Positions 22,601 to 57,185 of a stretch of DNA of 64,000 nt are shown here, in pieces. Each line of letters opens with the position of its first letter. Position 1 is the stretch's first letter. Both the position numbers and the translations under genes were made by a program. Where the stretch lies: NCBI RefSeq assembly GCF_000003815.2, contig NC_049980.1, positions 17,463,154 to 17,527,153 on the forward strand, written 5' to 3'. This DNA comes from Branchiostoma floridae. Lineage: Eukaryota; Chordata; Leptocardii; Amphioxiformes; Branchiostomatidae. The notes under the pieces are model-generated. The model was not told the DNA's origin. It made no database searches and saw only the letters and a list, made by a program, of their open reading frames with translations.

Positions 22601-25600
22601 TCCATGGCAATATTGTGTCGTTGTCTTTTAGAGAACACGTTCTACGGTCAGATCTACCACTCGGCCATCCTCGGACTGATCTACATCGTCCCGCTCTGCG
22701 TTATCTCCATCGCGTACACTATGATCGTCTGGAAGCTCTGGAGCAACCAAATCTCGCGTGAGTCTGCGTGAACTGTGTTCCTGTAGCAATAAGCGTGTAC
22801 ACGTCCAACATGCGAATGCACAGGTGAAGGGTGAAAAGGCTCCAGAAACATAAGCAAAAGACCATCGTAGCTTTAAATCGCCAAACAGATGTAGAGCCCC
22901 TTTTGTTTAAGTCGTGTTTTGGTGACATTCTGTAAGTCTTAACTTCCCAGGCGAGGAGACGAAAGAGACAGAAAGACCTACAAAGCATGTAAAACAAGCG
23001 GCCTATACTTCTGATTAAAGATTACACAGCTTTGACCACTTTCTTTGACAAGCTCACGCATTACTACAGACTAAATACAAATTCATCATGCTTTCACATT
23101 ATTGAAGCATCTTGGGTTATATAAACAATTAACTGAAGCGAAGCATAAGAACTAAGTATAAGCATGAAAATACAACTTCAGGCGTGACATCCATCAAATC
23201 AACACTTAAAGAGGCGTCAAGCTGTCTACTGACGTTGATTAGCCCTGAACAAATTTATTTAGCCTTGGGCTGATTTGTAATTAAGATTAGGCTACGTAAC
23301 CATCCATCAAGCTTACCTAACACCAAACAAAGTGAATACAGTTAACAGAAGGTTCGTCGCCTGCGGAAAGTGTGACTCATACAACATACACGTAGTACAC
23401 ATGGAAAGACTGATGAAAGACTGTCAATTGGGAACATTTCTCTTAGTAGTAGAACTCTGAGATCGGTTAGCTCTTCTGCAGCGCCCCCGCTACATAGGGA
23501 TGACAATAGCAAAGATCGTAAGGAATTGCATAAAGTAGATAGCGCAAGCCAAATCAAAGTTTTATACATGAATGGTCGTAGTATCAAATCTGTTAACAGT
23601 CGGCGAAATAAATTAGTGCTGTTCCAAAACCTTGTTGAATCAAATCAGCCTTCTTTAGTGGCAGTAACTGAAACTTGGCTAACCCCAAGTATCAAAGACG
23701 ACGAATTGCTTCCCAAGCGCTACTTGCTTTATCGCAAAGATCGTTGTACTGTCATTCCCGGCAAAATCGGCGGGGGCATTCTCTTAGCTGTCAATGGCAA
23801 TATTCTGTCAAGAAGGAGGTCTGATATTGAACCTGTTGACGAAATCTTGGTCTGCGAAATGCTGACAGAAAAACAGGGGAAAATCGGTATCATCTTGTTT
23901 TATAGACCCCCTAATGGGGACTTACTGGCATTTACTAATAACCTCCAATATACATTGCGTTTGGCCGACCAAGAATACAACAAGGTGGTCTTATTAGGTG
24001 ATTTGAATCTCCCTAATATCGATTGGTGTAGTTTGATAGGCAATTCTACTACAGAAAACCAGTTTTGTGATGTTTTGAATGATTTCTCACTAACACAGGT
24101 TAATAATGTTACTTCTAACAGTCATAACCATCTTTTGGATGTGATTCTGACTAACGTTCCTGAAAAATGTTCCAAAGTTGAAAAAGTATCATCTGATTTT
24201 CCTACTGATCACACTATTCTACAGTTTGACCTGAATTTTCGTACGGTATTCCGTCAATCAAACATGAAAAGACATGTCTACCAGTATAAAAAAATGCAAC
24301 TTTGATAACCTACGACAAAGTCTCAGAGACACTCTCGGTTCTCAAGGCTTTGTAGAATCTGATAGCATTGATGACTGTTGGGATACGTGGTTACAATGTT
24401 TGTGTGGCTTGGTTGAAAACCATGTACCAAAAGCTAAAATAAAAAATTCTTATTCCATGCCATGGTGTGATGGTGATGTCTACCATCTTAGAAATAAGAA
24501 GTTGACTGCATGGCGAAGGGCAAAGAAAACTGATCGCCCAGCCCACTGGCATAAGTTCCGGAAACTTAGAAATGGTCTACAAAAACTTATTCATTACAAG
24601 TACAAACTGTTTCTTGAGAACTTGGGATCCTTGGTCAATAATAATCCTAAGAAATTTTGGACTTTCTTTAAAAATAAAACAAAATCACATTGCTTGCCAC
24701 AAATTCTGAAATACAAACATTATCAAGGAACGACACCTACTGATAAAGCAAATCTGTTTAACAAGTTCTTCTTCTCTGTTTTTACTACCCCTGTAGTAAA
24801 TCAGCCTCTCCCTGAGATCAGTGCTTGGAGACATCCCTTCCTCGGCAACATTGACTTTACAATCAAGGAAGTTCTAGATGTCTTGCTTACCTTAGATTGT
24901 ACAAAAGCTATTGGCCCTGACTCTATATCCCCAGTGATCCTACGCGAGGGTGCACACGTATTAGCTCCTCAACTTACTGCCATCTTCAACAAAAGTATTC
25001 AATCGGGCATAGTTCCAGCTAAATGGAAAGAAGCCAACGTCTGTCCCGTCTTTAAGAAAGGCAGTAAAGACTCTGTTGAAAACTATCGACCCATTTCCTT
25101 ACTCAGTGTAGTAAGTAAGGTTATGGAACGTTGCATTTTTAACCGTATTTTCCCTCACCTTCAAGACCAAATTCACCCACTACAACATGGCTTTATTAAA
25201 GGAAAATCTACTACTACCCAACTATTGGAAACCTTTCAAACCGTCGGGACAACTTTGGATCACAGTGGCCAGATAGATATAATTTACCTCGACTTTTCCA
25301 AAGCTTTTGACAGCATTCCACATCACCTTCTTGTACACAAACTTAAGACATTTGGATTCCACTCGAATCTCCTAAATTGGTTCTCTGATTATCTGTCTAA
25401 TAGAAGACAACGAGTAGTCATTGAAGGAGTTTCTTCAGACTGGCTTCCTGTAATATCCGGAGTCCCACAAGGTTCCATTTTGGGACCTCTACTTTTTTTA
25501 CTTTATATTAATGACCTGCCCTCTACTATAGAATGTCCCATGGCCCTTTATGCTGATGACTCAAAATGTTACAAGCAAATTTCATCACCAGCTGATTGTA

Positions 25601-28600
25601 TTTCCCTTCAGCATGATATTGACAACATGGTCGAATGGAGTGTCACATGGATGATGAAATTTAATACCTCTAAATGTAACGTGCTCACTATCTGTAGGTC
25701 TAAAACACCAGTGCTCTATGACTACGAAATTGAGGGACAAGTGCTCTCATCAGTTACGGAATTTAATGACCTAGGTGTAACTATGTCCAACTGCCTATCT
25801 TTTAAGAGTCATATAAAAAACATCACAGCTAGTGCCAACTCGACCCTCGGCTTTATTAAGAGATCTGTTGGTTACCATGCCCCTGCAAATGTTAAGAAAA
25901 TCCTATATATTACACTAGTTAGGCCCAAACTCGAATATTGCTCGTTAATCTGGTCCCCCCACACTCATAACTTAATTACTTCCCTTGAAAAAGTCCAGAG
26001 ACGTGCTACAAAATACATTCTCAACAACCATACAACTGATTACAGGGATAGATTGATCTACTGCCAACTCTTACCTCTATCTTACCGCAGAGAATTATTA
26101 GACTTATCCTTCCTATTTAAATGTTTCTTGGGACAATACGGTATTGACATTCATCAATATATAAGTTTTCCACTCACATCCCTAAGATCCAACTCACAAG
26201 CCAAGCTCCAGCCCCAAAAATGTCTCACCACTACGTTTAAAAACTATTTCTTCCAAAGAATCGTCCACATCTGGAACGCTTTACCCCTCAACATTAGAAC
26301 TCTAAAACTTTCCCCAGTTGTTACAATTAATACCTTTAAGAAAGCAATCCTAGTTCACTATCTCTCTCTTACCAACGACAGATTTAACTCCAACGACGTA
26401 TGTACTTGGGTCACCCACTGTCAGTGTCCCAGTTGTACACCTTTCTAGATATTTCATATTTCATCTTACCATTATTTCTATGATTTATTTCTTTATATTT
26501 GTTATTATTGTATATTTGCTTTTATTGTCGTTGACACAATCATTATTATTTGATTGTACAATTGTTATTATTTGTTATCATTATGATTATTTTTCTATTA
26601 TTGTATAATTTAGTTGCACGGGAGGCAACTAGTAAAGGTTACAAAGTACCTGTTTTTGCCTCCCTACCATTTTGTAAACACATATGGTGAAGTTCAAATA
26701 AATAAAAGCTTGTTACGCACGCTCCAAGTGCTTTTGCCAACTTTACTTAAAAAGCTCCTGTCTTTGTGTCTAGTGACAGTTGCCCTGAAGGTGACCGGAA
26801 ATGACGTCGGGAAGCGGCGTGGCAGTCTCGTGGGACAGTTTCGACGAAGCCTACGACTGAAAAACAGTGAGTCATTATCATCATCATCATCATCGTCAAA
26901 TACATGTTCATGTTGCACAGTGCGCAATGTAGTCTACAACATTCAATGGATCTTTCAGTTGCATTTCTCCCTGAGACATGATTTCAATATGGAAAATTGA
27001 AACATCTTTACAGCTCAAACATCGCATGTATATAAAGTGAAACAAAGAAATTGTGCCCTGTTGTCCAGTGTATAGTTTAGCAGCCTCCCTTTCATCGATC
27101 ATCGGACGACGTTTACTCATATCACTTTGTACTTGTGGCAATTATGTACTTTGTACTTGTGGCAATTAAGTTAGGCAGTTAGGTGTTATATTTACTAAAA
27201 TCGAGACATGCCAACGCAAACTTCGTTGAGACATTGCAAAACGTGACAAATCAGTGAAGTTGGTTGTTTGTGAGTGCAAAATTCACTTTGCTCCTATCTA
27301 AAGGTGCGGACTTCAGCACCGACTTCCGACCCTACACCGTGTCCCCCGCAGACGAGTGCCCTCCCAGTCCGCGATCACAAACGGTGTCCCCAGCTGAGGA
27401 ACAGCCTCGCAGTGCGAGCCCCTCCAAGGACACCATCGGTCAAAGGTCAGGAGAGACCATCTTCGCTCGAAGAAAGGTTGCCCGGATGTTGATTGCCGTG
27501 GTTATCATCTTTGCGGTCTGCTGGGCGCCATCTATGGTCATGAACTTCATGAAAAGGTACCTTCTTTAAATGTGCTTCTTTTTAACTTCCTGATTATGAT
27601 AAACATTGCTATATCAAGAATATTGCAAATATAGAGCGGGAGCAAAAATTTGCAAAAACTCTTATCACAGCATTCATATACATGTGGTTTGTGAGTAAGG
27701 TCGTTCATACACAAGTAGATCAAAGAGATAGTTAATGTATCTTATTTGCCCTATTTGCCCTTATATGACCTGCACCTACTNNNNNNNNNNNNNNNNNNNN
27801 NNNNNNNNNNNNNNNNNNNNNNNNNNNNNNNNNNNNNNNNNNNNNNNNNNNNNNNNNNNNNNNNNNNNNNNNNNNNNNNNCTGATGTCAGTGTGTTGCCA
27901 GGTTGCCGGTACTCTAGATCTTGCAATTGGACGCTATAGGGGATCCTTATACAAAAAAAGACAAGTGTCTGTAGGATACAAGCCTTCTTGAAGTTATTAT
28001 GGTTTGCAGTGTTGGATAAGGTGTCTATCTGTCGTCATGGCAACTTTTGATGAACGTGACATCATATTGTAAAGTTTTTTTACTTCAATATTGTACTATA
28101 GAGGTGTTCATAGATGCAGTAGGAGTATCCTCATTAAAAAAGCTTTAAACAGTGCCGACAGTTACTTCGTTGTCTAACGGTTAGGCTTTTGTTTTGATAT
28201 AGGTCTGTTCTGTGTAATATACTAACCAGCTACTGCCTCTGCGTGCCTGCGAAGCTGGTATGTTGCACAGAAGAGTGGTTGTACCGGCTATATAGAAACA
28301 AATTGAGATATAGCATTCTGCTAGGGATGTGTATTTTAGCACAATAAAGATGTCCAGGAAATCATCCCAACCTCTCTGTCCTGGTTACTAGAGTGCTGGG
28401 ATCGTTTGACGTGACCTATGACCGGGGCGGGCTGTATGCCGCCTACAGCGTCGCCCATTGGCTCATCTACTTCAACAGCGCCATCAACCCTGTCATCTAC
28501 GGCTTTCTGAGCGGTACGTCACCAGTTACCACTGGATTTGAAGGCTCTTACAAGGATACTCTTCTGAAGTGCATATAGAGCCATTGCAAATGAAAACCCA

Positions 28601-35866: not shown

Positions 35867-36604
35867 AAAAAGGTACTATGGACAATGTTGGACGTATGTA
35901 CGTGTATGCCCAGTTTGTGACGGAACTTCTTCTTCCTCGTCGTGTCTTCTTTGTCGTGTCTTCTCCGTCGTCGTGACGGAACTGTTACATTCCTTTACAC
36001 AAAGTCAGGTAAAAACAATTCTATGGTTCACTGATTTCTAGGCCCTGGGTGTGTGCGTGGGTGTCTCTGTGTGTGCTTGTACCTTGCACACTTGTGTGTT
36101 TGCCTCTGTGGTGTGAAAAAAAATTACAATGATTTACGCGGAAGCCATGTCGAAATGATCATAACTTGTAATTATGATTGTAATGGGTGAGGACCATGTT
36201 TTCACTTTGAGCGAGTTTAACTTTGATGTAGTATGTGTCACTTTATGGCAGTTTATCCCAAACAGTGGTCAGTGTTTTTTCAGTCAGAGCTCGAAGATCT
36301 CCGAATGATCCAAGGTCTTCAAAACAACTCTCAGTGAGCTTCCAACCTTCTGAGCGACAGATGGCGTTCGGTAGCTCATTGGTTAACGGTCTCTGCCCTG
36401 TGCAAGCGGGTCCCAGGAAAACCCGGTGTACTTTTAACAAACGGGATGACTAAAGAGTAAGAACCAACCCAGTTCTATACATTAATTTTTTTAAACTTCC
36501 TTGACAAACAAGACCGTCTCTGACAGGACAAAGCTTTATGGATATTGACGAATTCTGCCACGTTGAAAAGTAGAAAAACTGGTTTTGCTGCATTCTCCCG
36601 AAGT

Positions 36605-36787
36605 CTGAAGCGAGACGTGGACTAGACGGGCTCACACCTGCGCACTGGCAGGTGTTTAAACAACGCCGTCTCAGGTACCAGTTACTGACAGCGCCCGGAT
36701 CGGAGGGGGCAGTGCGCTGGGGTTCGAGGGAAGTTTTGACGGGTGAAGAGGACTAAAGTCTACGAAAGAAGGAGTTCTGAAGACAGG
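36605..36787 (+). other. Exon-like GC-rich block with splice donor (unit 1)
   Basis: GC-rich segment ending GAAGACAG|GTGAGC, a strong donor, with no ATG inside. It resembles a 5' untranslated first exon plus promoter-proximal DNA. It is almost identical to 40565-40748, far more conserved than the surrounding duplication. No coding exon can be joined to it from sequence alone. Confidence 0.35.
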
Positions 36788-37545
36788 TGAGCTACCATTG
36801 ATTTGGGACTAATTACTAATATAATTGCCGCCGTACATTTTATAAATGCAGGGTACAATTTGTTTTAGACCCCGTGACTTAGACACAGAATCAGAAAACG
36901 TTCCGGTGGGAGTAAAGACATGGCAGATACACACAAGGAGATACTTTTGGTATGGTGTACAAAGATATTTCGATGTTACTTATTTCTACATTCGTACTGC
37001 TCAGTTCCATAGTCAGACATATGAAATACATGGAAACGATCCTAGTTAATCAAGAGATCTTAGGCACATCTACTCACACTGAATTAAGTTTATGTGCATA
37101 TGTCCGGGCCCGGTCAAATACCTGTTTGATTCGAGCATCAAAACCGTACAGCGCGGTCACATTCGTCGTCTGTCGCCGTGCTCTTTTAATGCCGTAGAAT
37201 TTTCCAGCAGGCTGCGACAGAACCAAGGACTTGCAAGGATCTAAGACCATTTCTAAAGCCATTTCTGCAAAAAGACAGCTAACCTTAGGACACGTGCGCT
37301 ATTGTGCCAAGAATACAATCTGTACGCGATTGTATTGCGATCGCCCCACGTATGTGACGGGACCCCAAGTCGAAACATTTTGTGACTTAGACAGTAAAGA
37401 TTATATATGTTAAAAATATGGGGGTCACGGTAAGGATCTCAAGACCACTTGTTGTTGTACATGTAAGTTATGTATAAGATGTATAAGGCTGCATGGGTCT
37501 TGCTGACAGATAGACAGACACACAGACAAACAGAGGCTGGTGAAA

Positions 37546-39341: not shown

Positions 39342-40564
39342 ATGATGATATGTCGTCACTATGCATGGTAACGCTCTTTAGAATTTGGCTGACCACATTT
39401 GCGATGAATCAACATGGATGTTTGCCAAAAATACGCATACTTTAAAGTGTTAAGTAAAACAGACAAATACAAGTGGATCCCGCATAGACTCAGGGTTTTA
39501 AACTTTACAATTTTTATGTTCATCAACTTCAAAGAATCACAGATTCAGATCCACGTATTGGTCACATGCACGGTCGTGGCTGCTATTCTAATCATAGAAA
39601 CGCACAGTTCTGATTGACTTCATATGACAGCATCAGACTTTCCTTATTTTTCTTCCTTTCTTAAAATTTGTGAAATATTAAAGCAGTGTCCCAACAAATA
39701 ACTACGGCGTGGCACAAATGCGTCTTGAGTCAAAATACCTTGCAATGGTCCACGGACAGATCTCATCAGTTGTAGATAGATCACGTTTTACCCCATTGTT
39801 TTGTTTACAAATTCCTGAAATCTAGGCATGTGTTAACTCGCAGAATGGTTAATATAATGAATACCCGAGAGATTTGTGTCCCCTGTCAACTGTTTCAGTT
39901 GAAATCTAGTTAGTTAACTAGGAAAACGTGCTTTTTGCGCGTGTTTTGTCAACGTACAGAGAGCTGAGAACTAAAGCTTGCTTGACTTGTTTTCAACTGA
40001 TCATGAAGATAAGTCCTGCACGCTGGATCCTGATGGGCACACACACAGTGAACGTGCCAAGTTCAAGTTCACTACGCAGCGGTAGGCAGATATAGTCACG
40101 GGTGGGACGGGTGATATCGACTACCAGTTATAACACTCCTTTCCGATTCTAAAAAAATACAGCTCTATTTGGTGTTGATATCTCTGAGGCATGCTGTATG
40201 TGCAATACGTGTATTAGGAAGTTAGCTAGATGGTATTATTAAACATACATTATATTACGCAAATCAGCACTGCGTTTGCAAAATGATTAATTAAATGCTA
40301 GAATAGTCTGTTTTCTTAAGGTAAAATTTTATAGTGGGGAAAACTTGTTATTTGGGTGAAGCAAATGATTTATCCAAGGTCTTCAAAACATCTCTCAGTG
40401 ACATTCAAATGTCTAAACGCCAGATGGCTTTTGTGAGCTCATTGGTTAACGGTCTCTCCCTGTGCAAGCGGGTCCCAGGAAAGCCGGAAGTACTTCTAAG
40501 AAACAGAATGACTAAGGAGTAAGAATCAATCCAGTTCTATTTACATTAAATACTTCTTACCCCC

Positions 40565-40748
40565 CTTGAAGCGAGACGTGGACTAGACGGGCTCACACCT
40601 GCGCACTGACAGGTGTTCAAACAACGCCGTCTCAGGTACCAGTTACTGACAGCGCCCGGATCGGAGGGGGCAGTGCGCTGGGGCTCGAGGGAAGTTTTGA
40701 CGGGTGAAGAGGACTAAAGTCTACGAAAGAAGGAGTTCTGAAGACAGG
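40565..40748 (+). other. Exon-like GC-rich block with splice donor (unit 2)
   Basis: Near-identical copy of 36605-36787; only about three substitutions seen by eye across the block. Ends GAAGACAG|GTGAGC. It could be an upstream 5' UTR exon of the plus-strand gene at 45521, but this is speculation. Confidence 0.35.
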
Positions 40749-40891
40749 TGAGCTACCATTGATTTGGGACTAATTACTAATATAATTGCCGCCATACATT
40801 TTGCAAATGCCGGGTACAATTTGTCCTTAGACCCCGTGACTTAGACACAGAATCAGAAAACGTTCCGGTGAGAGTAAAGACATGGCGGATA

Positions 40892-42690: not shown

Positions 42691-45520
42691 AGGCCTATAT
42701 TTCACCAATCTCCATTATCAGTTGGAATGTAACAGTACAAGAGTTTTCATCTATCATGCATGGCTCAATAATCACGTATTTACCTACTCTTTGAGACGTG
42801 ACTCTAGCTTGAATAAGGAATGACGTGAAATTGGCCTCATTTCAATTAACTGAAGACAGGGAGTTGTTCGTTCAAATAAAAAGAAAATAATTGATCATAA
42901 GAACAATAAACACTGTTTTCTAGAGGTATTCATACAAGCTTAGCTATTCACAAAACACGTTGGTCTATCGCACAATGCCATGAATATTTCAGGGCCCATT
43001 GGAGTTTAGACATAAAAGGCCCGTTCTGCTACGCTCTATGGAGTATGACTCGACATATGCCCTACCTTTTGAGGTGTTTGGCTCCAAACATAGTCGATGA
43101 GTTAAGCACAAAAAAGGCAGGATTTTCTTTCAAGGACAACTGCTGAATGCTAAAGGCCATCGGCAAAATAGAGACTTTTGAAGACAGGTAAAGGAACCCT
43201 AAAAATGTAGAGCGATTATCATGTGGAGGTAAGGTGTCCAGAATATGTTTAAAGCTGGTTTTGATCAGTCACGGTTCTTACTTTACTTGCAACGTGCATG
43301 GGACATCGGTGAAGTCGAAGGCGCCTTAATGAAGAAAGCTTTAACGTGTACAGCCGGAATCTATCAGACCTGAGTCATACGGAATATTCTGAACTTCGGC
43401 AATAGTCGAAGCATCGACCCCACACTTTGCTACATTTTCATTCATGAAAAGAGTTGCTCGTAGGCCAAACATATGAGGTCTAAAGTTGATTCATTGTGTG
43501 GGCGGTAAATGTTTCGGAATTTAACGCCCCGAGGACGTTTTACAATCTGATTTGGCAAACGTATGCCGATGTCTTTTCAAATACCAGGCACCCATAGCAA
43601 ACACTCTTCATTGAATTTCCAACCGAATCGTGTTGCTCAGTCTTCCTCTCCCCAGTATCAGTCTCCTACACCACCTAGTTTTAAACTTCATTTTTGCCCA
43701 GCTTGCCGACTCTTCCAAATTCCTTATACGTACTTCGCGATCGCAGGAAGGTCGGCTGATTTTAAGATCTTAAGATGGTCTTGCGTATTTTTCGCCCAAA
43801 ATCTGTCCCCCTCACATATAAGCGAGCCTCGCGCGGTCGACGGTGAATAAATCTATGACAATGAACCTCCCATGACCTCTTGCACGCGGACAAGGGAACA
43901 CAAAACGTTCCTCAAAAAAGGCAAGAGATCAATAAATGTTGCTTATTTTGTTGTCGGAATCTTTTCAACCAATGAATGGAATGCGCGGGCATAATAGAAA
44001 TGACACAAGAAAGGAAAGTGTTTTACAAAGCCAGCCTACATACTGCCACATGGGCCACAATGTTAGAATANNNNNNNNNNNNNNNNNNNNNNNNNNNNNN
44101 NNNNNNNNNNNNNNNNNNNNNNNNNNNNNNNNNNNNNNNNNNNNNNNNNNNNNNNNNNNNNNNNNNNNNNNNNNNNNNNNNNNNNNNNNNNNNNNNNNNN
44201 NNNNNNNNNNNNNNNNNNNNNNNNNNNNNNNNNNNNNNNNNNNNNNNNNNNNNNNNNNNNNNNNNNNNNNNNNNNNNNNNNNNNNNNNNNNNNNNNNNNN
44301 NNNNNNNNNNNNNNNNNNNNNNNNNNNNNNNNNNNNNNNNNNNNNNNNNNNNNNNNNNNNNNNNNNNNNNNNNNNNNNNNNNNNNNNNNNNNNNNNNNNN
44401 NNNNNNNNNNNNNNNNNNNNNNNNNNNNNNNNNNNNNNNNNNNNNNNNNNNNNNNNNNNNNNNNNNNNNNNNNNNNNNNNNNNNNNNNNNNNNNNNNNNN
44501 NNNNNNNNNNNNNNNNNNNNNNNNNNNNNNNNNNNNNNNNNNNNNNNNNNNNNNNNNNNNNNNNNNNNNNNNNNNNNNNNNNNNNNNNNNNNNNNNNNNN
44601 NNNNNNNNNNNNNNNNNNNNNNNNNNNNNNNNNNNNNNNNNNNNNNNNNNNNNNNNNNNNNNNNNNNNNNNNNNNNNNNNNNNNNNNNNNNNNNNNNNNN
44701 NNNNNNNNNNNNNNNNNNNNNNNNNNNNNNNNNNNNNNNNNNNNNNNNNNNNNNNNNNNNNNNNNNNNNNNNNNNNNNNNNNNNNNNNNNNNNNNNNNNN
44801 NNNNNNNNNNNNNNNNNNNNNNNNNNNNNNNNNNNNNNNNNNNNNNNNNCTGCAAAAATAATGAGGCGAAAAAAACAGGATGGGTAATTTTCAAAATAGA
44901 CACCATATTAAGAATTTAAGTTAACAAAACATGGCTCAGACAACAAATCATTTATTCCTGTCTTATAGAAGTGAACTATAGTGTTGTTAAAGTAAAAATA
45001 GTGTGGTAAACTGGTATCACTTATCGAGTTGGCAACTACACTCATGACTTCCATTGTGGTACCACTTTTGCAACTATCCAACTAAATTTAGTTTCACTAC
45101 AACTACAACTACTGAGTCATGGCTACCTCGCTAAGCTACAGTGTCACGTCTACAGGTACAATCATTAATAGTCCACAACGTAACATATTTTGTATTTTTG
45201 GAACCCAAGTTGACCATCTCAGATGAAGAAGAAAATAGTTTTTTTTCTCCCTGAAATCTGTCGAGAATTAACGAGTGCACGGATGTCATAAAATTTGCTT
45301 GCTTTGGCCCAAAAAATTGACCAGATCGCTCAACCATGCCCAACACTTAGTGTCTGTTTTCTGAATAGTAGCCGCTACCATTCAAAGTTTTAAATTGTCG
45401 ATGCTTTTTATTGACCAACTTGTATACCTTACGAGCCTAAATCAAAATGTTGTACAAAGTCACAATATCATTTATTTTTCCATTATCACACTATCTGCAA
45501 AAATCAAAATAAATTTCCAG
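42691..45520. other. Interval upstream of the chimeric gene
   Basis: No supported exon. The missing signal-peptide exon of the gene at 45521 should lie here, in the gap, or further left. A 37-nt ATG-to-donor piece at 45119-45155 has the right phase but is not hydrophobic, so I did not use it. Confidence 0.35.
44071..44849. other. Assembly gap (779 N)
   Basis: Largest gap in the window, immediately upstream of the chimeric gene; may hide its first exon. Confidence 0.99.
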
Positions 45521-47430
45521 ATTGTGGGCAGCAAGCCCTTGGGGGAGATTCGGGGTACGTGTTCTCCCCCAACCATCCGGGCCTGTATCCGCGTAACAAG
45601 AACTGCATCTGGACCATCACTGTGGACATCGACAAGAGAGTGGTCCTGACGTTTGACAGCTTTGATGTGGAGTACCATGACCACTGCGCTAACGACTATG
45701 TCCTACTTGAGGGGAAAGATGGAGACGCCATTAATGAGAACTCTGGTAGTTTTTACCTTATTTCCGCCTAACAGTAACGTTATTAGCGTAATTATTACCT
45801 CCATGACAAATGGAGGTATAGTTTTTGGTGAGTCTGTGTGTCTGTCTGTGTGTCTGTTTGTGTGTCCGGATATTTATGGTCCCCAAAGCTCTAGGACCTC
45901 TGGATGGATTGTAATGATATTTGGTATGTGGGTAGGTGTTGGAAAACGAAGGTCAGGGTCGATTTGGGGTCCCCTCGTGTACGACCTTGGTACTGCAGCA
46001 GAACTTCGATTTTTCGTATCTTTTGACCTGGACATACTATAATCTTGATTTTTTTGGTGGCAGATAGCTTGTGATGTAAGGAAAAAGTGATGTATGTTTG
46101 GGTCCCCTTCCCTAGCAGCTTGCTCTGGAACCGCAGGGGCATTCTGGTCAAACTCTTCGTTCCAAGGAGCATGACGGAAAATAGGAACGACGGATTTCCA
46201 TGATATTCAGCATGTGGGTATTTTTAGCAGAGATGTACAAAGTGAAATGCAAATTATGCAAATTAGGTCCAAATTTGCATAATTAATGAGAAAATCTATA
46301 TTAACAGTGTTTTCCATAATAGGAATCAAATACATGTAACAGGTGTAGTTTGTGGCAGGTAGAAGATTAGCAGATACCAATTATGCAAAAAAATCCCTAA
46401 TTTGCTTAATCAACGCGAAAGTATCACAACTACTCAAGTGCATGCATAAAGTATGCAGATGTGCAAGTCACTTTTTTCACTTGAAACTCTGGCTAACAAT
46501 CTTAAAACATTTCTTGATTACAGAATTGCAGAATCATTTAGTATTTTGATGTAACTAAGTTAAGATAACATGACGGAATTGATTACATACACCAGTCACA
46601 TCTTTGTTTCTTTTTTTGTGAAACAAAATTGGTATGAATCTTACAAAATTCGTTCAAATGCTTAGCCACCCATGACTGAAAGGACCATTCAAATGCAGGG
46701 TGAATTTTTCAAAATTCGATTTTGGACCGGGGGGATTATGTGCGAAGTCCAGTTTTTCAGTGGAAGTGTTTTTGAACTGGTCAATTTTAAGTTTGAGGTG
46801 CCCAACGAATAGTCTAATTTTGCACAGGGGTTGACTTTTCCTTTCAACTTTGAAACAGTCCATCTTTCATATGGTGGGAAATGGTTGAAATATGCTGTAT
46901 TTGCTCGCAAATGTTGCCAGTCTGGTTGAACCAGTTTTGCCTGCATTGTACATAGATGGTGAAGTCTCAGGAATATATCCAGGTGTGGATCTATGGAAGA
47001 AGACCCCTGATGGAGGTATGGGACTGTGATGTTACACTTGCTCCCCCTGTTCCCTCCAACATGCATTACTTATCATAATGTTTTGAAGTATTGATGATTG
47101 GCCAGTTTTGTTTCATTTCACCCCCGCCTATACTTTGCCAAGTCGGGATGGATTATAACATAATAGATAACATTGGAAACGGGTTCCTTCAGGTGGTATG
47201 AGCAATTTTTCGGGATCTTTGCCATACAGTATTTTAGAGCTGCAGGTTTTGGTACACTGCCCTTCTTCATGCCCTTCTTCCTTCAGGAAAATTATGCGGT
47301 ACCAAACCTGACAATTTTACTGTAATGAGGAATTACACTTCTCGGACTAACATCATGACCGTGACTTTCAAATCTGATGAGTGGGTCTCCGGGACTGGAT
47401 TCAACGCCTCATTTGTTGCTGTGGATAAAG
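45521..47430 (+). CDS. CUB domain 1 (2 exons)
   Basis: Exons 45521-45745 and 47287-47430 (g|ga makes Gly). Four CUB cysteines: CGQQ, NCIW, DHCANDY, LCGT. The aromatic/hydrophobic pattern YVFSPNHPGLYPRN..WTI is typical. The acidic set around VEYHDHCANDYVLLEG suggests the Ca-binding type of CUB. The intron between the halves holds a family A copy. Confidence 0.88.
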
Positions 47431-50400
47431 GTGCAATTCATTGCTTACTTAACTTATTGTTCACATAGATAAAGAAGGGATTTTACGATTTGATATGTTT
47501 TGCATATCACATGCCAAAAAGTTTGATGCCAACTTTCATTTGTTACATATACTGTGACCTCGAATACTCAGTATTACTATAGTGTCGTCAGTTTATAGAA
47601 TTTGAAGCGCTCTACATATTCGGCATTTCCTCACGTTAGGCCAGGGACTTCATGTCTGTAGACGCACCAATACCAGCCACAGCTTGAATTCCATCTCGAA
47701 TTAAAGTTATAACCAGTTTGCTTGCTTATCCAGATCCACCCACATGCTCTGAGAATGAGAAGGAGTGTGCTGACCTCTTGGGATGTGTGGCATTCGCCAA
47801 GATCTGTGACGGCTCAAATGACTGTGAAGACGAGAGTGACGAACAGAACTGTGGTAAGACAATACGTAGATAGCTGCCCTGCTTCCTTCCTTAACCAGTT
47901 GTAATGTTTTCAAAAAGGGGCGTGGCATCTGAAAGGACTTTGCTTTTTCAAGGGTTCTACATAAGTTATAGAAAAATATAAAAGTTATAATTTATATTGA
48001 TTAGATCGAAACAAAATGAACGCAAAGCAAGTAAACCTGGCGCCTCTGATGCCATTGTATTCTACATGTTCAATCAACAGTTCAGAATTCAGCGTTGGTT
48101 TTGTCCTTTCCGTAGTGTGTGAGCAGATCCCATCAGAACTCAGCATTTGCAAGGGTACCATTGACTATGGAACGATGGTCTACCCCAACCTGTACGGCCA
48201 TGAGAACGAGACTGTGCTTCTGAATTCCCCGATCCTCGGCAGTCTGCAGGCTCTACAGTCCACTCCCCACCCTTGCCATGACGACGTGTTTGCCTTCGTC
48301 TGTTCCCTGCTGGCTCCCAAGTGTGTGGGAAATATGATCAAGCCACCATGCAGGTACACATTACAGGAAGAATGTCACTTGTATAAAGCTAACAAAATAT
48401 GTGAAATTGTGTATTGTGTTAACTGTTATGATCCAGCTGGGCAAGATATATACCATGGAGTATCTTACTAAACTCAGATTCCATTGTGTTCTATGTGTAC
48501 CACCATTGGCACCAGCTAAAACCTATGATAATATTGATAGTAATAACATACAAATGTAGATAACCTAGAGAAAGTCTTTGTCCTTGTTGAACCCCCAGGG
48601 TCTGGTGTCCAGACATCATGGCCAGCTGTCAGAACCTTACCGACCTGGTGCCTGACATCTGTGCAACCCTGCCATTCTCTGAGGACTGCTACATCAACCG
48701 TGCCACAAACCAGCCGGGAGCGGGTGGACCAGAAGGACCAGGCAGTGGTATGTGTTCAGTGTTCATGTGCCTGGGGTTTGTGTTTGAGTCAGTAAATTTG
48801 ACATCTCCTGAATATCAGTCTGTATATTGTTAATACTTTATGTGACCGCATCTGAACTGTGAGCAGTGACACCTGTGCTGCAGTAACAATGTGAAACAGT
48901 CAGCATTGCCCCAAAGAAGGTGACAGACGGTCACCGAAACGTAAGTTATGAATAAAATAATGGTTGTGTAAAAAGAGTCTTTTCATTCAAATGTGACAAC
49001 AGTTTGGTGAAGTGGGTATAACAGTTCAAATTAGAGAGGAATGGTCTGATACTCTGATATTTAACTTTTTCATGTGTTGGTACATGGTAGCAAGTGGATG
49101 TGGAGGAGTTCTACGTGGACTAAACAGCACGTTCCAGTCACCCAACTTTGGGAGAGGCAACTATGGCAACAACAGAGACTGTGTCTGGTCCATCAGGGTC
49201 TCCCCGCACCTCGTCCCTGAGATATCTTTCCACAGCTTCAAGCTGGAGGGGGGACCAGCTGATGGGAACTGTCCCTACGACTATGTCAGGATATTTGATG
49301 GGGAATGGCCAGACAGCAAGTTCAGCAGCATCAGATGTGAATACCTTTCATCTATGCCTTTGATTGTTCTTTATCAGAATGATCACTATCACATTGTACA
49401 AGAGATAACAACCAAATTGAAACTGAAAAATGTTAATGGTGTCAGTTGTGTTCTGGATAACACTGTTTGAAAATATTTTTGTACCATAATATTTACTGTG
49501 ACCTGTATGACATCCGTATGACTGGTCTTGGGATATTATTATTCAATAATTAGCTTCCATGCATGGTTTTAAAATTGTAATGGTCACATCACTTTTAATT
49601 TTTCTTGCTAACAAGGCATTTCTATTTTTTTCAGTTCAAAGTGGTGAAACCCAAGGTATATATCCTACCACACCTTACAGATGCGATGATCAGTTGTTTA
49701 AGATTCTTGCTCCTGCTTACCTATGTTATACGTATTCCAATATGATAAGGTGAACAAGGTGACAGCAAAGAAAAGATTCCTGATGCTAAAATAAAAATAT
49801 GACTGTCACATGATAGCCAGATTTAACCACATTGTGTGAAATGAACTTCAGCACCAAGGACAGTGTTGTTGTGCTGTTTGGTGCTTCTCTTTCTAGCACT
49901 TATGTGATGATCATGACAAGTAGAACTGCATCAGAGAAAATCTGGTGTTCACACAAGTTTTGAACTGCCACACCAAGTTAAAATGTACTTCCAGTCATTA
50001 ATTGGCTTGAATATGTCTTGTATCTGCCCCAGTGCAACTGCCTTTTGTTACTTTCTTTAGATGCAGAGAGGCTCTGTGGGGAACTGACTGAGAAATTGGT
50101 GGTGAGACCAAAAAGCTACATAGTGTCAGTCATTTTCTCTAGTGATGGACAAAACTCCAAGGAAGGTTTCAGTGCATCTTACACAACAAGGGACAGAGGT
50201 ACAGCAATTCATTCAGAATTCCATTTCTGTGCTGTTTTTCCAAATTACTGTAACCCTATAAATGCCAATACATTTGAGTGTCAGTGTATGACAACTTAAT
50301 TTGATCAGTCATACAAACAAAGTCTGTGGGCTCTTTCCCAGTATTTACAGCTGCATATATACTAGTACTGCAAAATTGACTTGGAAACAAATTCATTGAA

Positions 50401-53400
50401 ATTATTGTAATGCACCTTATTCAACCCGTTTTGTTCTGTAACCGATATCTTCAATATGTCTGAATTCTTGCAGGTGCTCTGCCGTGCCAGAGAGGTGAAG
50501 AGTTGTGTGATGATAATGCCCAGTGCATCCCCCTGTCCATGTATTGTGATGGGAAGTTTGACTGCTGGGATAAAAGTGATGAAAAGGATTGCCGTAAGGA
50601 CAACACATTTTGTGATGATAGGAGCATTTGCGTAATTGTGAATATTTCAAGCATAATGTGAAAATATCGAATAACAGCCAATCCCACAGGTTACCTCAGT
50701 GGACAGAACATATCTATCTTAAGGTCAGGCCTAGTTGGGGATTTGAAGCCTATATGTGCATTGCTAACTATTTATCAACACAATTTTCCAAATGAAATGT
50801 AACACAGTTACATGGAGTATGATTATTTTGTTTAATGTTGACATGAAATAGGAAATGTTTTTTCATGTGTTTTCATGGCCTCTTCAGAGTGTAATCCACT
50901 ACAAGGTGAGCTGGAGGATCTATGTGCGAGGAGAGATGGTTCTAACTATGTGTCCTTCCCAAACATGATTGGGCACAAGACTGCCAATGAACTGCAGAAC
51001 TCCCAAGAATACAGCAGGTGAAGTTATGTTTGATACAGGATGGCTTTCGGGAATTTTGTGTCTATATGTGGTAACTTAAAGCTCATTAGTGTTTCCTTGC
51101 CAGTATGATATTCAAATACACACATTACATAACTTGTGTTTGAAACAGGACAGTATAGTGTTATCATTTTAGTAGCTTATGCTTGCAGGGCATAGTAAAT
51201 TATAATTTTAACTATAACCATAACTATAAATTTTTGTCTAACTGCACTAACTATATCTAATACTCAACAGGTTCATGTAACTTGTTAGCTTAACAGTTGC
51301 TGAAGCTGTTAAGCAAAATAATCCCAAACATCTTGTATAATGATGCTGATCAATGCCTATGATGTTTCCCCCCTAGCCTGAAGAGCCTGATGCGGAGCCT
51401 CTGCCATGTGGACATTGCCGTGTTTGTGTGTGAGATGATGTCTCCCTCGTGTGACCGCTCCACCGCCACCAGCAAAGCTCCCTGTAGGTCCTGGTGTGAA
51501 GAAATAAGGTCAGTCAAGTGCTGCCCTAGGAAAACACAGACTCCCACAAGGCGTGCAAGCGATAGTCTGGGGCCGGCGTAAATGGGGCCAGCTGGTAGTG
51601 CATGTGGAGGGTGTATGGTTGCGGGCGCGTAAGGCAACTCTTCTTTGTGAAGCTTCTTTGAGCTGGTTTCCCAGGGTAGTCAAGCGCATCATCACTGCAG
51701 CCACCAAAGTTTAATTGATAGGATGGCTTTCAGTTCTTAACTCAGTCTGACAATTCAAACATTACCCCAAACATATAAAAAAGCAATAAACAATAGCAGG
51801 CACACAATTTCTAACATAGTTACTTAATCTAAACATGCATTATCCCTGGATATAGTTCTTTGCTTATGTCTACTCATCTTTTCAAAGCAACTGGAATCGA
51901 TCGTTATTCATGCTTTTGCTGTGTGATAAGGGCGACACTCATTGGAATTAATATCACTGAATCAAATGAAAATTTTCCATAGGATTTTGCATGCAATGCT
52001 TCAGACTGCCTTTTAGCAGTATAATCTAAAGGCCTGAGCTTTGTGACAGCTTTGTATTAATTGCATCCTGATTGGATAAAACATTGACTGACCAAACGCA
52101 GTTTATACGATATTGTTGGGCAGGGAAAGTAGTGGATTTATCTGTGGTCATGGTCTAATTCTGGTAAAAGCAACAAATCAGAGTAGAAATTGAAATTTCC
52201 ATTAGCCGGACATTGGTTACTGAGCTCCTATCAGTATTTGATGATGATGATATAATGCTCCTAGATTGTGGTCTGCGTTGATTGGTTAATCATTGTATAT
52301 TTTTGTCAAATGTTCAGGTCAGCCTGTGAGAGTGAAGCAGAGTGGCCATCAGACTTCCCCTCTTGTGACATCATTGAGAGCCAGGATGCCAACAACTGTG
52401 TGCAAGGACCAACATCCCGTGAGCTTAATGAATTTCTCTTTCATTGTTCAAATGTAGATGTGCAGTGACTGTGATAGAATGTGAAGCAATTGCCATTTGG
52501 ATATGGCAAAATAACAAATTATTATGTAAAATTCACCATGAGTGTTTTTCCACATTTCATGTAACCAGTGTTTTCTAACCATTACAAGTATCTTAACTTA
52601 ATTGAAGTGTATTCATGCAAACACATAAATCTTGCTGTTAACATTAGAATCAACCTCCAACTAAGTTGTTGTCCATTGTCAGTACACTGTTACCACGGGA
52701 AGGGAGCCAACTTCAGGGGCCAGATTGCTGTGACTGAGACTGGGCGGAACTGTACTGCCTGGGCAGATCATCAGTACGAGGTTACCAACTTCCAATGGGC
52801 CAACCTGGACAACAACAACTGCCGCAACCCCGGTAATGTTGCAGAACGGCCGTGGTGCTACGTGGACAACCAGTGGGAGTATTGTCGTGTCCCGCCATGT
52901 AGTGGTGAGTTGTGACTGTGTTAGTACACAATGATAATGTTTTTCATACATGTACTGAGACTCCATTGATACAGATTGGACTGTAGGTCATGGACCCTTA
53001 AGTTAAAACTACCAAAATCCTGTATTTTAGGACAGGTTTGCCGCAACCGAGGCCTCCCCAGAAATGTTCAAGCCCATCCTGTGAAAGAGTTCTACTGGCC
53101 AGGAGATAAGGTGACGTACCAGTGTGCCTCCACCTACACACTGAAGGGCTCTGCAGTCATCAAGTGTCTGGACAACTCCACTTGGAGCAGCAGTCTTCCT
53201 ACTTGTATTGGTAAATACAGCTTTAGTATAATAACTTTGCAGATTTGAGGAACATGAATGTAGATGAAATGAAAAATTGGTGTTTTGAACATTAAAGTCA
53301 ACATTTGCTGCTTTGGGACATTCTTCCTTTTGTACTGATACCACAGTGAATGAGTACAGACAGTTGCTGGAGGATCTGTTTGACGTGTACAGTGCAGAGG

Positions 53401-56400
53401 CAGCACCCTCCGAGCTGCCAGTAGACGTCACTACAGTGTTCTCTGGACATGTTGTCAACATAGTGTCATTGGTAATTATGAGCTGTCTCTATTCTATAGT
53501 CCAGCTCTCTAATACAGAAGACTAACCATAGTGGCAGCACTAAAGTAAAGTGCACTGTTAAGATACATATTAACGTTAACATAATTCCAAATTTCAAGAC
53601 AGCTTTTTGTTGTCTCATATAGGGTTACAATCTTCATATCTTTGAATTGTGATATCTAAAGCATAATGTAATGTCTGTAACATTTCATGTATGTAATGAC
53701 TTAATCTGATATATTTCCTTTCAACAAAAATACATTCCTGACCAGATATGTAATGATTATTAACCATGTACATTTTTCAATACATCCTAGCATAAGGTGG
53801 CCAAAAACAAAATCTCCATTAAAATGATTTCAGAACAATTTTCTGTTTTTTTTTTTGCATGTGAATAGGATGAGACTGGACCAGAAGTGCAGACTGAAGT
53901 TGTGGTGGAATTTGTGAGTTGAACATTGACAAATTTGATTCCTACATCTTCTTAGAACTTTTAATAGATTAAAGTTGAAGCAGATTATGGCATTTCCTTA
54001 TAGATTGATCTGAAGTAGCTTGAATTGCTTCTGAGTATGCCAGAAACTAACTTTCAACTGCAAACTTGTGTTTCCCCAAAAATGCAGCGCTGGATTGACA
54101 ATAGGCTGTCTTGGACACCTACCTCATATGGCAACATAGACACCCTACAAGTGGCTTACGAGAGGGTCTGGGCTCCTACTGTGATTCTGCAGAGGAAGTG
54201 AGTCAAGCTAATTTACTTCTGGGACTTTGTGTGTATATGAATATCAATGGTGCTATAAGAGCCAAACACATTTGTAGAAGGGTTTGGATTTTTTGAAATT
54301 GTATTCTCTCTTTATAAAAATGATCATCTGACTCTCCCAACAGAACAGAAAATTAAAAATATTAGAAACATATTATCATGATCATTCAGTCACAATTGTC
54401 TGCAAGGAAGGTGCTTTGTGTTACAACACAAATGAAGCCATCTACTGAGAGGCAGTGTTGACCTAGTGTTAAGTCTCCTACAATTCTACTTCATGATCAT
54501 ACAAGCATACAAGAATACCATCATGCATCTTTCAGTTTGCTTGGCAAGGTTAAAACTGCCAGAGTTTCAGCACTATAAAATGCTATCAGTGCCAGGGTTG
54601 GCTGCTGACCTCCAGAAAGAAGGCACAAGGTCGAAGTCCCTAACTTCCTGGATTAGTGTGCTGCGCACGCGCAAAGCTGCTACTATAAGCTATCCCTGAT
54701 ATATCCAGGTGCGGTACACAGGACATGTACATGTATATGTATATGTGTGCCGGATATATCCAGGTTTGGCAGCAGAGGTAGATTTGGTATTCATAGATAC
54801 AGGATAGTGGTTGTCAAACAACCTAAAGATTGATATCACCATGCAAATCCTTAAATGACAACAGTAAGATTTCCCTTTCCCCATGTCAGTGCTGACACTG
54901 GCTTCACCAGATTGCCAACTGTGGATGTGACTTTGACATCATCAGGGGAGGTCATCTGGCAGGTGCAGACGCTGGTCACTACCACCTGTGACCTTGACCA
55001 GTACCTCTTCCCCTTTGACTCCATGACATGTCCTGTGTGTTTGAAGACAGACCTTACTAAAGGTGATGATTGCCAAGTTTAATAAGTTATTCTTAGATGT
55101 TGGGCATGACACATGTGATAGAAATATTCATAATGTATTCAGAATATAACGTTATCTATTTTTATGATATCAAAGATTCACATAACATATCATACATCAT
55201 TCAGTAAAGCTGTTACATTGCTCTACAAAGATATTAGGCATGAGTGAGTCATTAAAGGTTCCCTTTATTTTCTAAATTTAGAATGTGCAGAAGTCTAAGT
55301 CTATATTGTGTCCAACAGGTGAGAGACTGAGTTGTCCCCTTGAGGGTAACACGACAGCAGAGAACAACTTGAACTGCAGTACTTCCTCCCAGACGTCCAC
55401 AGGAGAGTGGTCTGTCACCATCACTGCAGAAAGTACAAACGACACAGGCTGCCTGAATCTGGCACTACAGCGGAACCCAACATACCATATGTGCACCACC
55501 ATCGCTCCTACCATCATCCTCGCCATTCTCATGGCCATCACCTTCCTCATCCCTATAGACAAGGTTAGAGTTGTCCTCTTACACACAGATGAAGGAGAGC
55601 CAGCACGATGATGAAAATTTGATTGTGTTGTTACAAGATGCATTTACACCTGTGTAAGTGAACATGTACATGTTTTAACTTGCAGGGAGACCGCTTGTCC
55701 TATGGGATGGCTGTTCTGCTGTCAATGGTGGTATCACTTGTCGTCATCACAAGCTTCCTTCCACGCTCCACTAACATCCCATTTGTTGGTGAGTCAGGCC
55801 ATCTCACAGCATTTTCAAGTTATCCATCAGATATTTGACATCACGTACATGTAATACTGGTGTTGTTAGAATTTAAGAGACAGATGAGGCTTTGGAGTAT
55901 TCTATGATTGGTATTCAATTATCTATTAACTTAAAGGTTCTCCAATACAGTGATATTCTATATTGAACAATTCTGCCAGTATCACATATAATGAATTGTG
56001 AACCATGAGCTCATTTTACATGTATTTAATTTGTCATTTCTACATTTGAATTTTTTGTCCTCAATGTACAGTATTGGTGATAGTACAAAATGATGCAAAA
56101 TATATAAAAATTATGGAAAGTTTAAGCTTCAACACCTAACGCTGATATTGTTATTAGACTTTTTTTACATTTATCTGTTTTCAAGTGTTAGAACCATTGA
56201 AATTTTTTAACTATTAAAAGTCAAGACTACTCTTACAGTGTAACGATTTCTTATACATGTAAATCAATATGATGAACCTTTGATGTCATTTCTTCCATTC
56301 CAGGGACCTTTGTGGTTGTGTCCATGTCCTTTATGGCATTCTTCATGCTAGTGACTCTGGCCATCATCATCATATCTGGCAAGGAGGGTGACCTCCCCTC

Positions 56401-57185
56401 TTGGGCTCGCACTGTCTTCCTCAGGTACATGTACATTGTACCCTTGTACATGTGTATAGTACATGACTTGTAGAATACCAACACTGCAATTTACAATGAA
56501 TGTCGTCTGTATCTGTATCGGGTCTTTCTGTATCTGGGATGTTGATTGCAAAATGATAATGTTATAGGTTACTCTGCATGATTTGGTAGCAGAAAAAGGA
56601 CTATAAAAATTTCCTTGCAATATTGGTAGGAAATACTATGCCAAACTGAGATTGTGCTAATTGTCCTTGTGTTTTTTTTAAATTAAAAACTATGTATAAC
56701 TGTAATATTTTAACAAATCATGTGGCATGTTAGAGATTTTGTATGTATACCAATGCAGTTCTAATTCTACAACATGCAGCTGACAATGTGCTCTGTTCTT
56801 CCACAGGTACATGGCCCAATGCCTTTTGATGGGAAACCTGGCCAAGAAGTCTTATACATTGGAGGTGGGTCGAAGCAAAAAAGATGTCATCTATGAGAAT
56901 GGCTCCTTCACAAACCTTTGGGAGGAAGGGCCACAGCGTGCGGAGGAAAAGTCAACTGGTGAGCAGACAAAGCCAGTCGATGCCAACCTGAGTGCCATGA
57001 TCAGTGGGATCAGGGAGAGCATTGACAGCCTGAATGCCAATATTGAAGCCATGGGACAACAGAAGGAAGATGAGGAGAGCGAGTGGGTGGTGCTGGCCCA
57101 CGTGCTGGACCGTCTGTGCCTGGTCCTCTACATTATTTCCTCCATCGTTGCCGTGCCCCTGTCTCTGTACCTAGGCCACCCTTAG
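45521..57185 (+). CDS. Chimeric CUB/LDLa/Frizzled/kringle/sushi Cys-loop ion channel subunit (5' partial)
   Basis: 22 exons: 45521-45745, 47287-47430, 47734-47853, 48116-48353, 48599-48747, 49091-49336, 49635-49655, 50061-50198, 50474-50593, 50888-51017, 51377-51508, 52318-52418, 52683-52904, 53031-53210, 53347-53471, 53869-53913, 54088-54197, 54890-55062, 55319-55563, 55686-55788, 56304-56424, 56807-57185. All junctions agree in phase, giving about 1,154 residues to the TAG. Domains: CUB 1-122, LDLa 123-162, FZ 163-291, CUB 292-426, LDLa 427-466, FZ 467-587, kringle 588-661, sushi 662-721, nicotinic-type ligand domain plus TM1-4 722-1154. It should form a pentameric plasma-membrane channel with a very large ectodomain. 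The first codon is split, so an upstream exon (signal peptide) is missing. Ligand and function are unknown. The alternative of two adjacent genes is unlikely: the 136-bp intron before the channel part has no room for a separate signal-peptide exon. Confidence 0.85.
45798..46440 (+). repeat. Family A repeat copy in chimeric-gene intron
   Basis: Starts with the terminal palindrome CCTCCATgacaaATGGAGG, then GTCTGTGTGTCTGTCTGTG and the family body, with octamers at about 46252 and 46274. The right terminus is not clear. Confidence 0.6.
47734..47853 (+). CDS. LDL receptor class A repeat 1
   Basis: Single 120-nt phase-1 exon. Six Cys (TCSE, KECAD, LGCVA, KICDG, NDCED, QNC) with the Ca-binding DGSNDCEDESDE. 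Confidence 0.92.
48116..48747 (+). CDS. Frizzled cysteine-rich domain 1 (2 exons)
   Basis: Exons 48116-48353 and 48599-48747 (ag|g makes Arg). All ten FZ cysteines can be counted: CEQ, ICKG, PCHD, VCSL, KCVG, PCR, WCPD, SCQN, ICAT, DCYI, with the usual FAFVCSLLAPKC core. Followed by a Gly/Pro linker. FZ domains bind Wnts or lipids in other proteins; ligand here unknown. Confidence 0.88.
49091..50198 (+). CDS. CUB domain 2 (3 exons including a 21-nt microexon)
   Basis: Exons 49091-49336, 49635-49655 and 50061-50198. Cysteines: GCGG, DCVW, NCPYDY, LCGE. The first exon ends aga t|GTGAAT. The 21-nt exon (acceptor tttttcag, donor GTATAT) reads FQSGETQ and restores the g|at junction before AERLCGE. 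Direct joining of the outer exons is also in phase (t|at), so the microexon may be optional. Confidence 0.8.
50474..50593 (+). CDS. LDL receptor class A repeat 2
   Basis: 120-nt phase-1 exon, the same length as the first LDLa exon. Six Cys with CDGKFDCWDKSDEKDC. Donor c|GTAAGG. Confidence 0.92.
50888..52418 (+). CDS. Frizzled cysteine-rich domain 2 (3 exons)
   Basis: Exons 50888-51017, 51377-51508 and 52318-52418. Ten cysteines: QCNP, LCAR, LCHV, VCEM, SCDR, PCRS, WCEE, ACES, SCDI, NCVQ. The intron positions differ from those of FZ1, so the two are either old duplicates or separately acquired. Confidence 0.87.
52683..52904 (+). CDS. Kringle domain
   Basis: 222-nt single exon. HCYHGKGANFRG start, six Cys, NNNCRNP, the RPWCYV signature, EYCRVPPC end. 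Complete and canonical. It follows directly after a FZ domain, the same order as in ROR receptors. Confidence 0.93.
53031..53210 (+). CDS. Sushi (CCP) domain
   Basis: 180-nt phase-1 exon with four Cys (VCRN, YQCA, IKCL, PTCI) and the Trp in STWSSSLPTC. Only 136 bases separate it from the first exon of the channel part. Confidence 0.92.
53347..55563 (+). CDS. Nicotinic-type Cys-loop ligand-binding domain and TM1 (5 exons)
   Basis: Exons 53347-53471, 53869-53913 (45 nt), 54088-54197 (110 nt), 54890-55062, 55319-55563. The 45- and 110-nt exons have the lengths of exons 3 and 4 of vertebrate nicotinic receptor genes. N-terminal helix VNEYRQLLEDLFDVY; RWIDNRLSWTP; VWAPTVILQRNADTGF; Cys-loop CDLDQYLFPFDSMTC with 13 residues between Cys and an FPFD core; TGEWSV; TM1 after RNPTYHMC. 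Odd points: an extra CPVC cysteine, two more cysteines in the beta7-8 region, loop C short and without vicinal Cys, and the loop D Trp and loop A Tyr not conserved. Confidence 0.86.
55686..55788 (+). CDS. Channel TM2 (pore helix) exon
   Basis: Encodes GDRLSYGMAVLLSMVVSLVV and the following ITSFLP. Aligned on GEK, it keeps an acid at -1' (Asp), a base at 0' (Arg), Leu at 9' and small polar residues at 2' and 10'. The extracellular 20' acid is Ser. A cation-selective pore is expected from the -1' ring. Confidence 0.87.
56304..57185 (+). CDS. Channel TM3, cytoplasmic loop and TM4 (2 exons)
   Basis: Exons 56304-56424 and 56807-57185. TM3 FVVVSMSFMAFFMLVTLAII; a loop of about 85 residues with a Glu/Ser-rich part and an amphipathic helix before WVVLAHVLDRLCLVLYIISS, the typical MA/TM4 entry with the DRL motif; ends at GHP and TAG (57183-57185). 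Confidence 0.87.

Follow-up and report, generated by a model that had tools for sequence, protein, structure and literature searches.

A putative Cys-loop channel subunit with a CUB, LDLa, FZ, kringle and sushi ectodomain and its family of loci in the lancelet Branchiostoma floridae

In the portions of the cited sources used here, a stereotyped plan is ascribed to animal Cys-loop receptors (PMC549065), and their associations with other domains are known at the genome level only and need validation (PMC4795631). The octopus chemotactile receptors are unresponsive to acetylcholine and Alpo4 is an orphan receptor (PMC10338036). In worms, LEV-10 and LEV-9 cluster acetylcholine receptors as separate proteins (PMC9083331). 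The MuSK kringle is present in fish, amphibians and birds (PMC3927609), and the FZ domain of ROR2 is devoid of a lipid groove (PMC11219042). In amphioxus, expansions have been reported among true nicotinic receptors; a family with an added ectodomain is not mentioned in the consulted portion of that source (PMC6354393). Here, we describe a gene of Branchiostoma floridae which joins eight extracellular modules to a Cys-loop channel. It occupies positions 45521-57185 of the forward strand of the window, i.e. the whole stretch of 64,000 nucleotides analysed (contig NC_049980.1, labelled C2 in the following). We did not find this architecture described in the open-access literature, in line with the original prediction, which knew of no family with the same module order; subscription journals and database annotations lay outside the scope of that search, and gene models for the family may well be present in public databases already.

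The window protein reveals the Pfam order CUB-LDLa-FZ-CUB-LDLa-FZ-kringle-sushi followed by a complete Cys-loop channel, every domain scoring above its own cut-off (CUB and Ldl_recept_a and Fz twice each, Kringle, Sushi, Neur_chan_LBD and Neur_chan_memb). This domain search of the joined protein, which the original prediction had proposed as a check, recovers all eight modules and both channel domains. The complete cysteine sets that had been claimed for the modules are there (4, 6, 10, 4, 6, 10, 6 and 4 in order), as are the Cys-loop domain and the four transmembrane helices, with 110.9 bits for Neur_chan_LBD (E 7.9e-32, cut-off 26) and 78.3 bits for Neur_chan_memb (E 1.3e-21, cut-off 28.1). 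The best PDB match of the channel half (query 6-423) is the muscle nicotinic alpha subunit (alpha1, E 2e-39), and the Cys-loop pair stands 13 residues apart, with a Pro motif (CDLDQYLFPFDSMTC). By its core, as judged from the sequence, the family is a Cys-loop receptor. No Pfam match to a kinase domain was obtained in the window protein. At least 720 residues of ectodomain lie ahead of the N-terminal helix of the channel, and the last sushi cysteine is separated from this helix by two residues. FZ1 is nearest to sizzled and Frizzled, and ROR2 was matched in one stretch across FZ and kringle (9fse, 9.2e-13).

The exon model comprises 22 exons on one strand and 1,155 codons, with compatible phases and a single stop; all 22 acceptors read AG and all 21 donors GT, so that the phase-consistent, one-stop model first put forward stands. 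One base of the first codon is unknown, and a placeholder was used in translation. The borders between modules are in phase 1, as in modules known to undergo shuffling. In the ectodomain, exon model and Pfam together place CUB1 in 45521-45745 and 47287-47430, LDLa1 in 47734-47853, the first part of FZ1 in 48116-48353 (also found by structure-match search), the first part of CUB2 in 49091-49336, LDLa2 in 50474-50593, the first and middle parts of FZ2 in 50888-51017 and 51377-51508, the kringle in 52683-52904 and the sushi (CCP) module in 53031-53210. The second part of FZ1 (48599-48747) and the last parts of CUB2 (50061-50198) and FZ2 (52318-52418) come from the exon model. The 22 exons include a microexon of 21 nt inside CUB2 (49635-49655, phase 1-1), and the frame is open without it too. 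At its place, the closest paralog (C2:9.6M) has a phase-1 stretch of 24 nt flanked by acceptor and donor. Use of the microexon is not proven, since the peptide of this counterpart scores 11 against it and unrelated stretches score 10.

The channel begins with exon 53347-53471, which encodes the N-terminal helix of the ligand-binding domain and no signal peptide (exon model, PDB match), and continues with 53869-53913 (beta1-beta2 loop region; exon model). Motif patterns further assign loop D and the place of loop A to 54088-54197, the Cys-loop (C-x13-C) and the place of loop B to 54890-55062, and loop C and M1 to 55319-55563. The pore helix M2 (55686-55788) and M3 (56304-56424) follow in the exon model, and the last exon (56807-57185; exon model, PDB match) contains the intracellular part, M4 and the stop codon. 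The span from the sushi exon into 54890-55062, originally suggested for a check of the seam, passes over three channel exons (53347-53471, 53869-53913 and 54088-54197). Nor does the gene start at 45521: this exon is entered in phase 1, and therefore at least one 5' exon is missing from the model. It is perhaps hidden in an assembly gap of 779 N upstream (44071-44849). A search for a signal-peptide exon upstream of the gene gave five weak candidates, none of them convincing, and the 10 kb preceding the window (L028) did not match any exon of the gene.

That ectodomain and channel constitute one fused gene, as had been predicted, is well supported at the sequence level, given an intron of 136 bp at the seam, no separate start found there, similar constraint on both halves and the same plan at many loci. 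This intron lies between the sushi exon and the first channel exon. A heuristic scan for an ATG followed by a hydrophobic stretch and a phase-1 donor found no signal-peptide-like start between sushi and the third channel exon, and a single candidate between FZ2 and channel, internal to an FZ2 exon. A separate first channel exon with its own signal peptide, which the original prediction had named as a possible refutation, was thus not found in the window gene by this sequence scan. Across the family, a candidate start was seen in 1 of 17 seams; the opposite strand, taken as control, gave 4 of 17. Relative to the C2:9.6M paralog, the ratio of nonsynonymous to synonymous divergence (pN/pS) is 0.376 in the ectodomain (689 codons) and 0.393 in the channel (409 codons), ratios which are rough because synonymous sites are far diverged (pS 0.63 and 0.52, respectively). 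Both halves appear to be under similar constraint. Among the exons measured, pN/pS reaches its minimum in that of M2 (0.128). Two separate genes were rejected on account of the seam intron, the similar constraint and the scan, and a pseudogene was rejected for the window gene in view of its open, phase-consistent model and the constraint on both halves.

The original prediction read the gene as a single invention, which the genome census does not bear out. The genome (513 Mb in 431 contigs) was searched with the channel half, a search that scores the best candidates, and the following counts hold among the matches listed. Of its 99 rows, 65 represent loci of family type, i.e. with M1/M2 like those of the window gene, and 23 represent other channel loci; the remaining 11 are additional exons of these same loci and were dropped. 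A same-strand kringle lies in the 12 kb upstream of 60 of 65 family loci vs none of the 23 other channel loci; extending the distance to 30 kb gives 62 of 65. The control placements gave 0 of 65 downstream and 1 of 65 on the opposite strand. Conversely, 57 of the 58 best kringle rows fall within 30 kb upstream of a family channel; the kringle searches each covered about 150 scored hits, with kringle ends set to start + 220. A cluster of FZ matches at C4:10.19-10.23M has no family channel nearby among the rows of the channel search and is a possible relative of the ectodomain donor.

Reading of 18 paralog loci in 21 stretches from several contigs revealed FZ at 18, kringle at 17, sushi at 16, LDLa at 15 and CUB at nine of them, many stretches ending before the place of CUB. 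At each locus the modules sit on a single strand, and their order is the same, save for an extra partial kringle match upstream in L025 (9778-9882) and in L026 (8965-9084). Kringle and sushi were not detectable in L020, and no sushi was found in L017; the FZ match at L030 is only 12 residues long. Among the loci read, only the window gene and the C2:9.6M paralog show the CUB-LDLa-FZ set twice in full. In this paralog (L011:1206-1694, at C2:9.613M), the next intron contains five additional tandem copies of the M1 exon end and its donor, 91-101 bp apart and some of them out of frame. A one-off fusion was rejected by the census together with the kringle association, and a chance alignment of open reading frames (ORFs) by the recurrence of the plan at paralogous loci and, again, the kringle association.

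About seven more divergent family-like loci, picked by eye from the genome search, bring the total to approximately 65-72. None of the listed kringle hits lies near these seven, yet the one that was read, L030, has kringle, sushi and the short FZ; FZ hits occur upstream of two others. The 63 loci with un-split M1-M2 score at least 71.4 bits and the first outsider, C7:6.33M, scores 64.6 bits, which is a small gap; in the tree, neither this outsider nor the C13 loci group with the family. That search gives lower scores to the window gene and C2:9.6M because an intron separates M1 from M2. M1 and M2 share a single exon in 16 of 19 loci read and are intron-split in the window gene, L011 and L030. 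The 65 loci and the seven fall in 53 groups (within 150 kb), 41 of them singletons. These are counts of loci irrespective of allelic copies and pseudogenes; some may be pseudogenes, or allelic copies on the unplaced contigs C230, C256 and C221. C256:10746-11021 and C8:17304908-17305183, with equal score, E-value and identity, may be two alleles of a single locus.

In trees of the M1-M2 region, the sampled family forms a single clade. With 90 columns, 19 family rows are split from six canonical rows by a branch with 100/100 support; with 82 columns, the same holds for 16 family rows against seven other relatives and five canonical rows (100/100). Many inner forks are weak in both trees, and the 16 family rows of the second are a subset of the 19 of the first. 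Among the seven other relatives fetched, the loop B Trp is kept in the five where this stretch was seen, and the first of two extra cysteines described below is present in none (by eye). For this reason, these residue changes lie on the branch carrying the ectodomain.

Residues were compared in an alignment of 15 rows (A1) and by motif patterns over up to 19 family loci and eight canonical loci. Gating and pore residues are retained. All 15 rows have the pre-M1 Arg, the 9' Leu and the M2-M3 Pro, and 14 of the 15 have the -1' Asp. M2 starts with GDR in the window gene and with GDR or GDK in 14 of 15 rows, L021 having GAR. An acidic -1' residue in M2 and no PAR motif form the signature of cation-selective pentameric ligand-gated ion channels, and the window gene has both features. 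The Cys-loop (13 residues) is contained in a single exon at 18 of 19 family loci and is intron-split in L030.

In contrast to the pore, the acetylcholine site has changed. Loop D Trp is present in the 18 loci matched, by a pattern which itself requires Trp. The loop A aromatic is found at 0 of 18 family loci, and as Phe in the three canonical loci matched, of eight. The loop B Trp, seven residues after the Cys-loop, is found at 0 of 18 family loci vs 8 of 8 canonical loci, a count in which paralog splice sites are not modelled and from which five off-target pattern matches in other frames or places, one with Trp at the loop B place, were dropped. Loop C, from GEW to the conserved Arg, spans 24-25 residues in 13 of 13 family loci vs 29-34 in 6 of 6 canonical loci. 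Its vicinal CC is absent from these 13 family loci, in which a single exon holds the stretch, and present in three of the six canonical loci matched. Membership of the acetylcholine-binding alpha subunits was rejected, since loop A aromatic, loop B Trp and vicinal CC are all absent.

Two cysteines have been gained. The first, three residues after the Cys-loop, is present at 18 of 18 family loci and in L030 and at none of eight canonical loci; it aligns to alpha1 K145. The second is a lone cysteine in loop C, shared by all 15 rows and also present in L011, L012, L029 and L030. Counting back from the conserved Arg puts it near T202 and the HMMER alignment puts it at Y198, so that its place is uncertain. 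K145 and D200 of alpha1 are a known pair. The family-specific cysteines may form a disulphide tying strands near loop C.

We propose that this gene encodes a subunit of a pentameric Cys-loop channel, a long membrane protein with modules in front, which is predicted to be cation-selective and unresponsive to acetylcholine at its own principal face, its ectodomain serving for anchoring or ligand sensing. We give this proposal an even chance of being correct. On the principal face of the subunit the classical acetylcholine pocket would no longer be formed, and the elements linking the extracellular domain with the pore would be retained. Five ectodomain arms would crown the pentamer and could bind matrix, a partner on the cell surface, a protein ligand or a lipid-modified one. 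Because the last sushi cysteine lies two residues from the first channel helix, such binding could anchor the channel or alter its gating. The modules would act in cis, unlike the separate clustering proteins of worms, and we favour such a role in cis, be it anchoring or ectodomain-dependent gating. With the acetylcholine site lost, a change on which the original prediction did not remark, a non-classical ligand is likely, and the ectodomain might couple matrix, lipid or Wnt-type ligands to ion flux, as the original prediction suggested.

Several points weigh against this proposal. The residues neither single out a ligand nor give any sign of gating by the ectodomain. In a channel that also contained normal alpha subunits, gating by acetylcholine could persist. 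The 5' end is absent from the model, and the signal peptide is thus unseen. By E-value in the structure-match search, the window kringle is nearest to those of plasminogen and HGF, with ROR2 well below. Moreover, the LDLa domain of LEV-10 is dispensable for clustering, and the worm clustering proteins, in the portion of the source consulted, have several CUB or CCP copies in an order unlike that of the window gene (PMC9083331).

The strongest rival is an expanded environmental sensor comparable to the octopus chemotactile receptors, in which the ectodomain concentrates or selects ligands at the body surface. It is possible, if on the doubtful side. The spread of at least 65 loci and seven more over 53 groups in one genome, 41 of them singletons, agrees with it, as does the loss of acetylcholine-site residues; against this, the pocket looks dismantled and not re-lined, and we know of no such extracellular modules in the octopus receptors. 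Somewhat unlikely is a ligand sensor in the strict sense, where the FZ, CUB, kringle and sushi modules capture a Wnt-like or matrix signal, be it a protein or lipid-modified, that gates the cation channel directly, and the old pocket has been discarded and locked by the new disulphide.

The channel part might also be a mere membrane anchor or a silent subunit below a scavenger, Wnt-binding or immune receptor, with no ion flow. Large expansion and mobile extracellular modules would be typical of recognition receptors, and the agonist pocket is lost. A mere anchor, however, would have no need of the pore and coupling residues that are kept in 14 or 15 of 15 rows, nor does the low pN/pS of M2 fit it, and we regard it as unlikely. 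Very unlikely is the view that the locus yields a soluble ectodomain and, from an alternative promoter, a separate channel, with the fused form being minor. Beyond the sushi exon the frame continues for 12 codons until it meets a stop within the 136-bp intron, and intron retention would therefore yield a soluble ectodomain; yet the heuristic scan gave no channel-specific first exon, family seams had fewer candidate starts than the opposite strand, and kringle and channel are adjacent at 60 of 65 loci. An artefact, i.e. two neighbouring genes or a mis-assembly taken as one, is hardly credible even though public protein sets contain many chimeric gene predictions (PMC3927609), given the kringle association and a shared single-strand plan at the 18 paralog loci read, which come from several contigs.

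Elsewhere in the window, two overlapping long ORFs at 23376-26448 (+) resemble by eye the endonuclease and reverse transcriptase of a non-long terminal repeat retrotransposon, and an ORF at 20823-21197 (+) resembles by eye an exon of a rhodopsin-type G-protein-coupled receptor (GPCR). The same peptide stretches occur twice, about 4 kb apart, at 36450-36808 and 40546-40769 (-), a local duplication upstream of the gene.

Approximately 65-72 chordate loci joining modules to a site-less channel would show module shuffling on a large scale in the Cys-loop superfamily. The family would be a test case for whether a modular ectodomain can gate or place such a channel. It would also be a natural counterpart in cis to the scaffolds which cluster receptors at synapses in trans.

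With nicotinic alpha1 and its relatives, the window gene shares the channel domain plan, the 13-residue Cys-loop with FP, the acidic -1' residue and the 9' Leu. It differs by at least 720 residues of added modules and two conserved cysteines, and it is without the loop A aromatic, the loop B Trp and the CC of loop C. ROR2 and MuSK likewise have FZ followed by kringle, but they end in one transmembrane segment and a kinase, and the window gene ends in a channel. MFRP and corin carry CUB, LDLa and FZ modules, as the window gene does, on single-pass membrane proteins with no channel.

The octopus chemotactile receptors and Alpo4 are, like the family, nicotinic-like with no CC tip; Alpo4, unlike the family, retains the loop B Trp and other cage aromatics, and added ectodomain modules are not mentioned in the consulted portion of this source (PMC10338036). 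Module types of the same kinds act on ligand-gated channels in LEV-10 (CUB, LDLa), LEV-9 (CCP), NETO and SOL-2, for which the consulted part of the source mentions neither FZ nor kringle (PMC9083331); these are separate proteins acting in trans, whereas the modules of the window gene share one frame with the channel in the gene model. Bacterial pentameric ligand-gated ion channels with PBP-I, Cache or MCP-N also place an extra sensor domain on a core of ligand-binding domain and four transmembrane segments (PMC549065), but these are prokaryotic proteins and their sensor domains are unrelated to the modules described here. In amphioxus itself, LDLa, CUB and kringle have been shuffled onto the membrane signalling core of adhesion GPCRs as well (PMC2246102); there the core is a GPCR, and in the window gene it is a channel.

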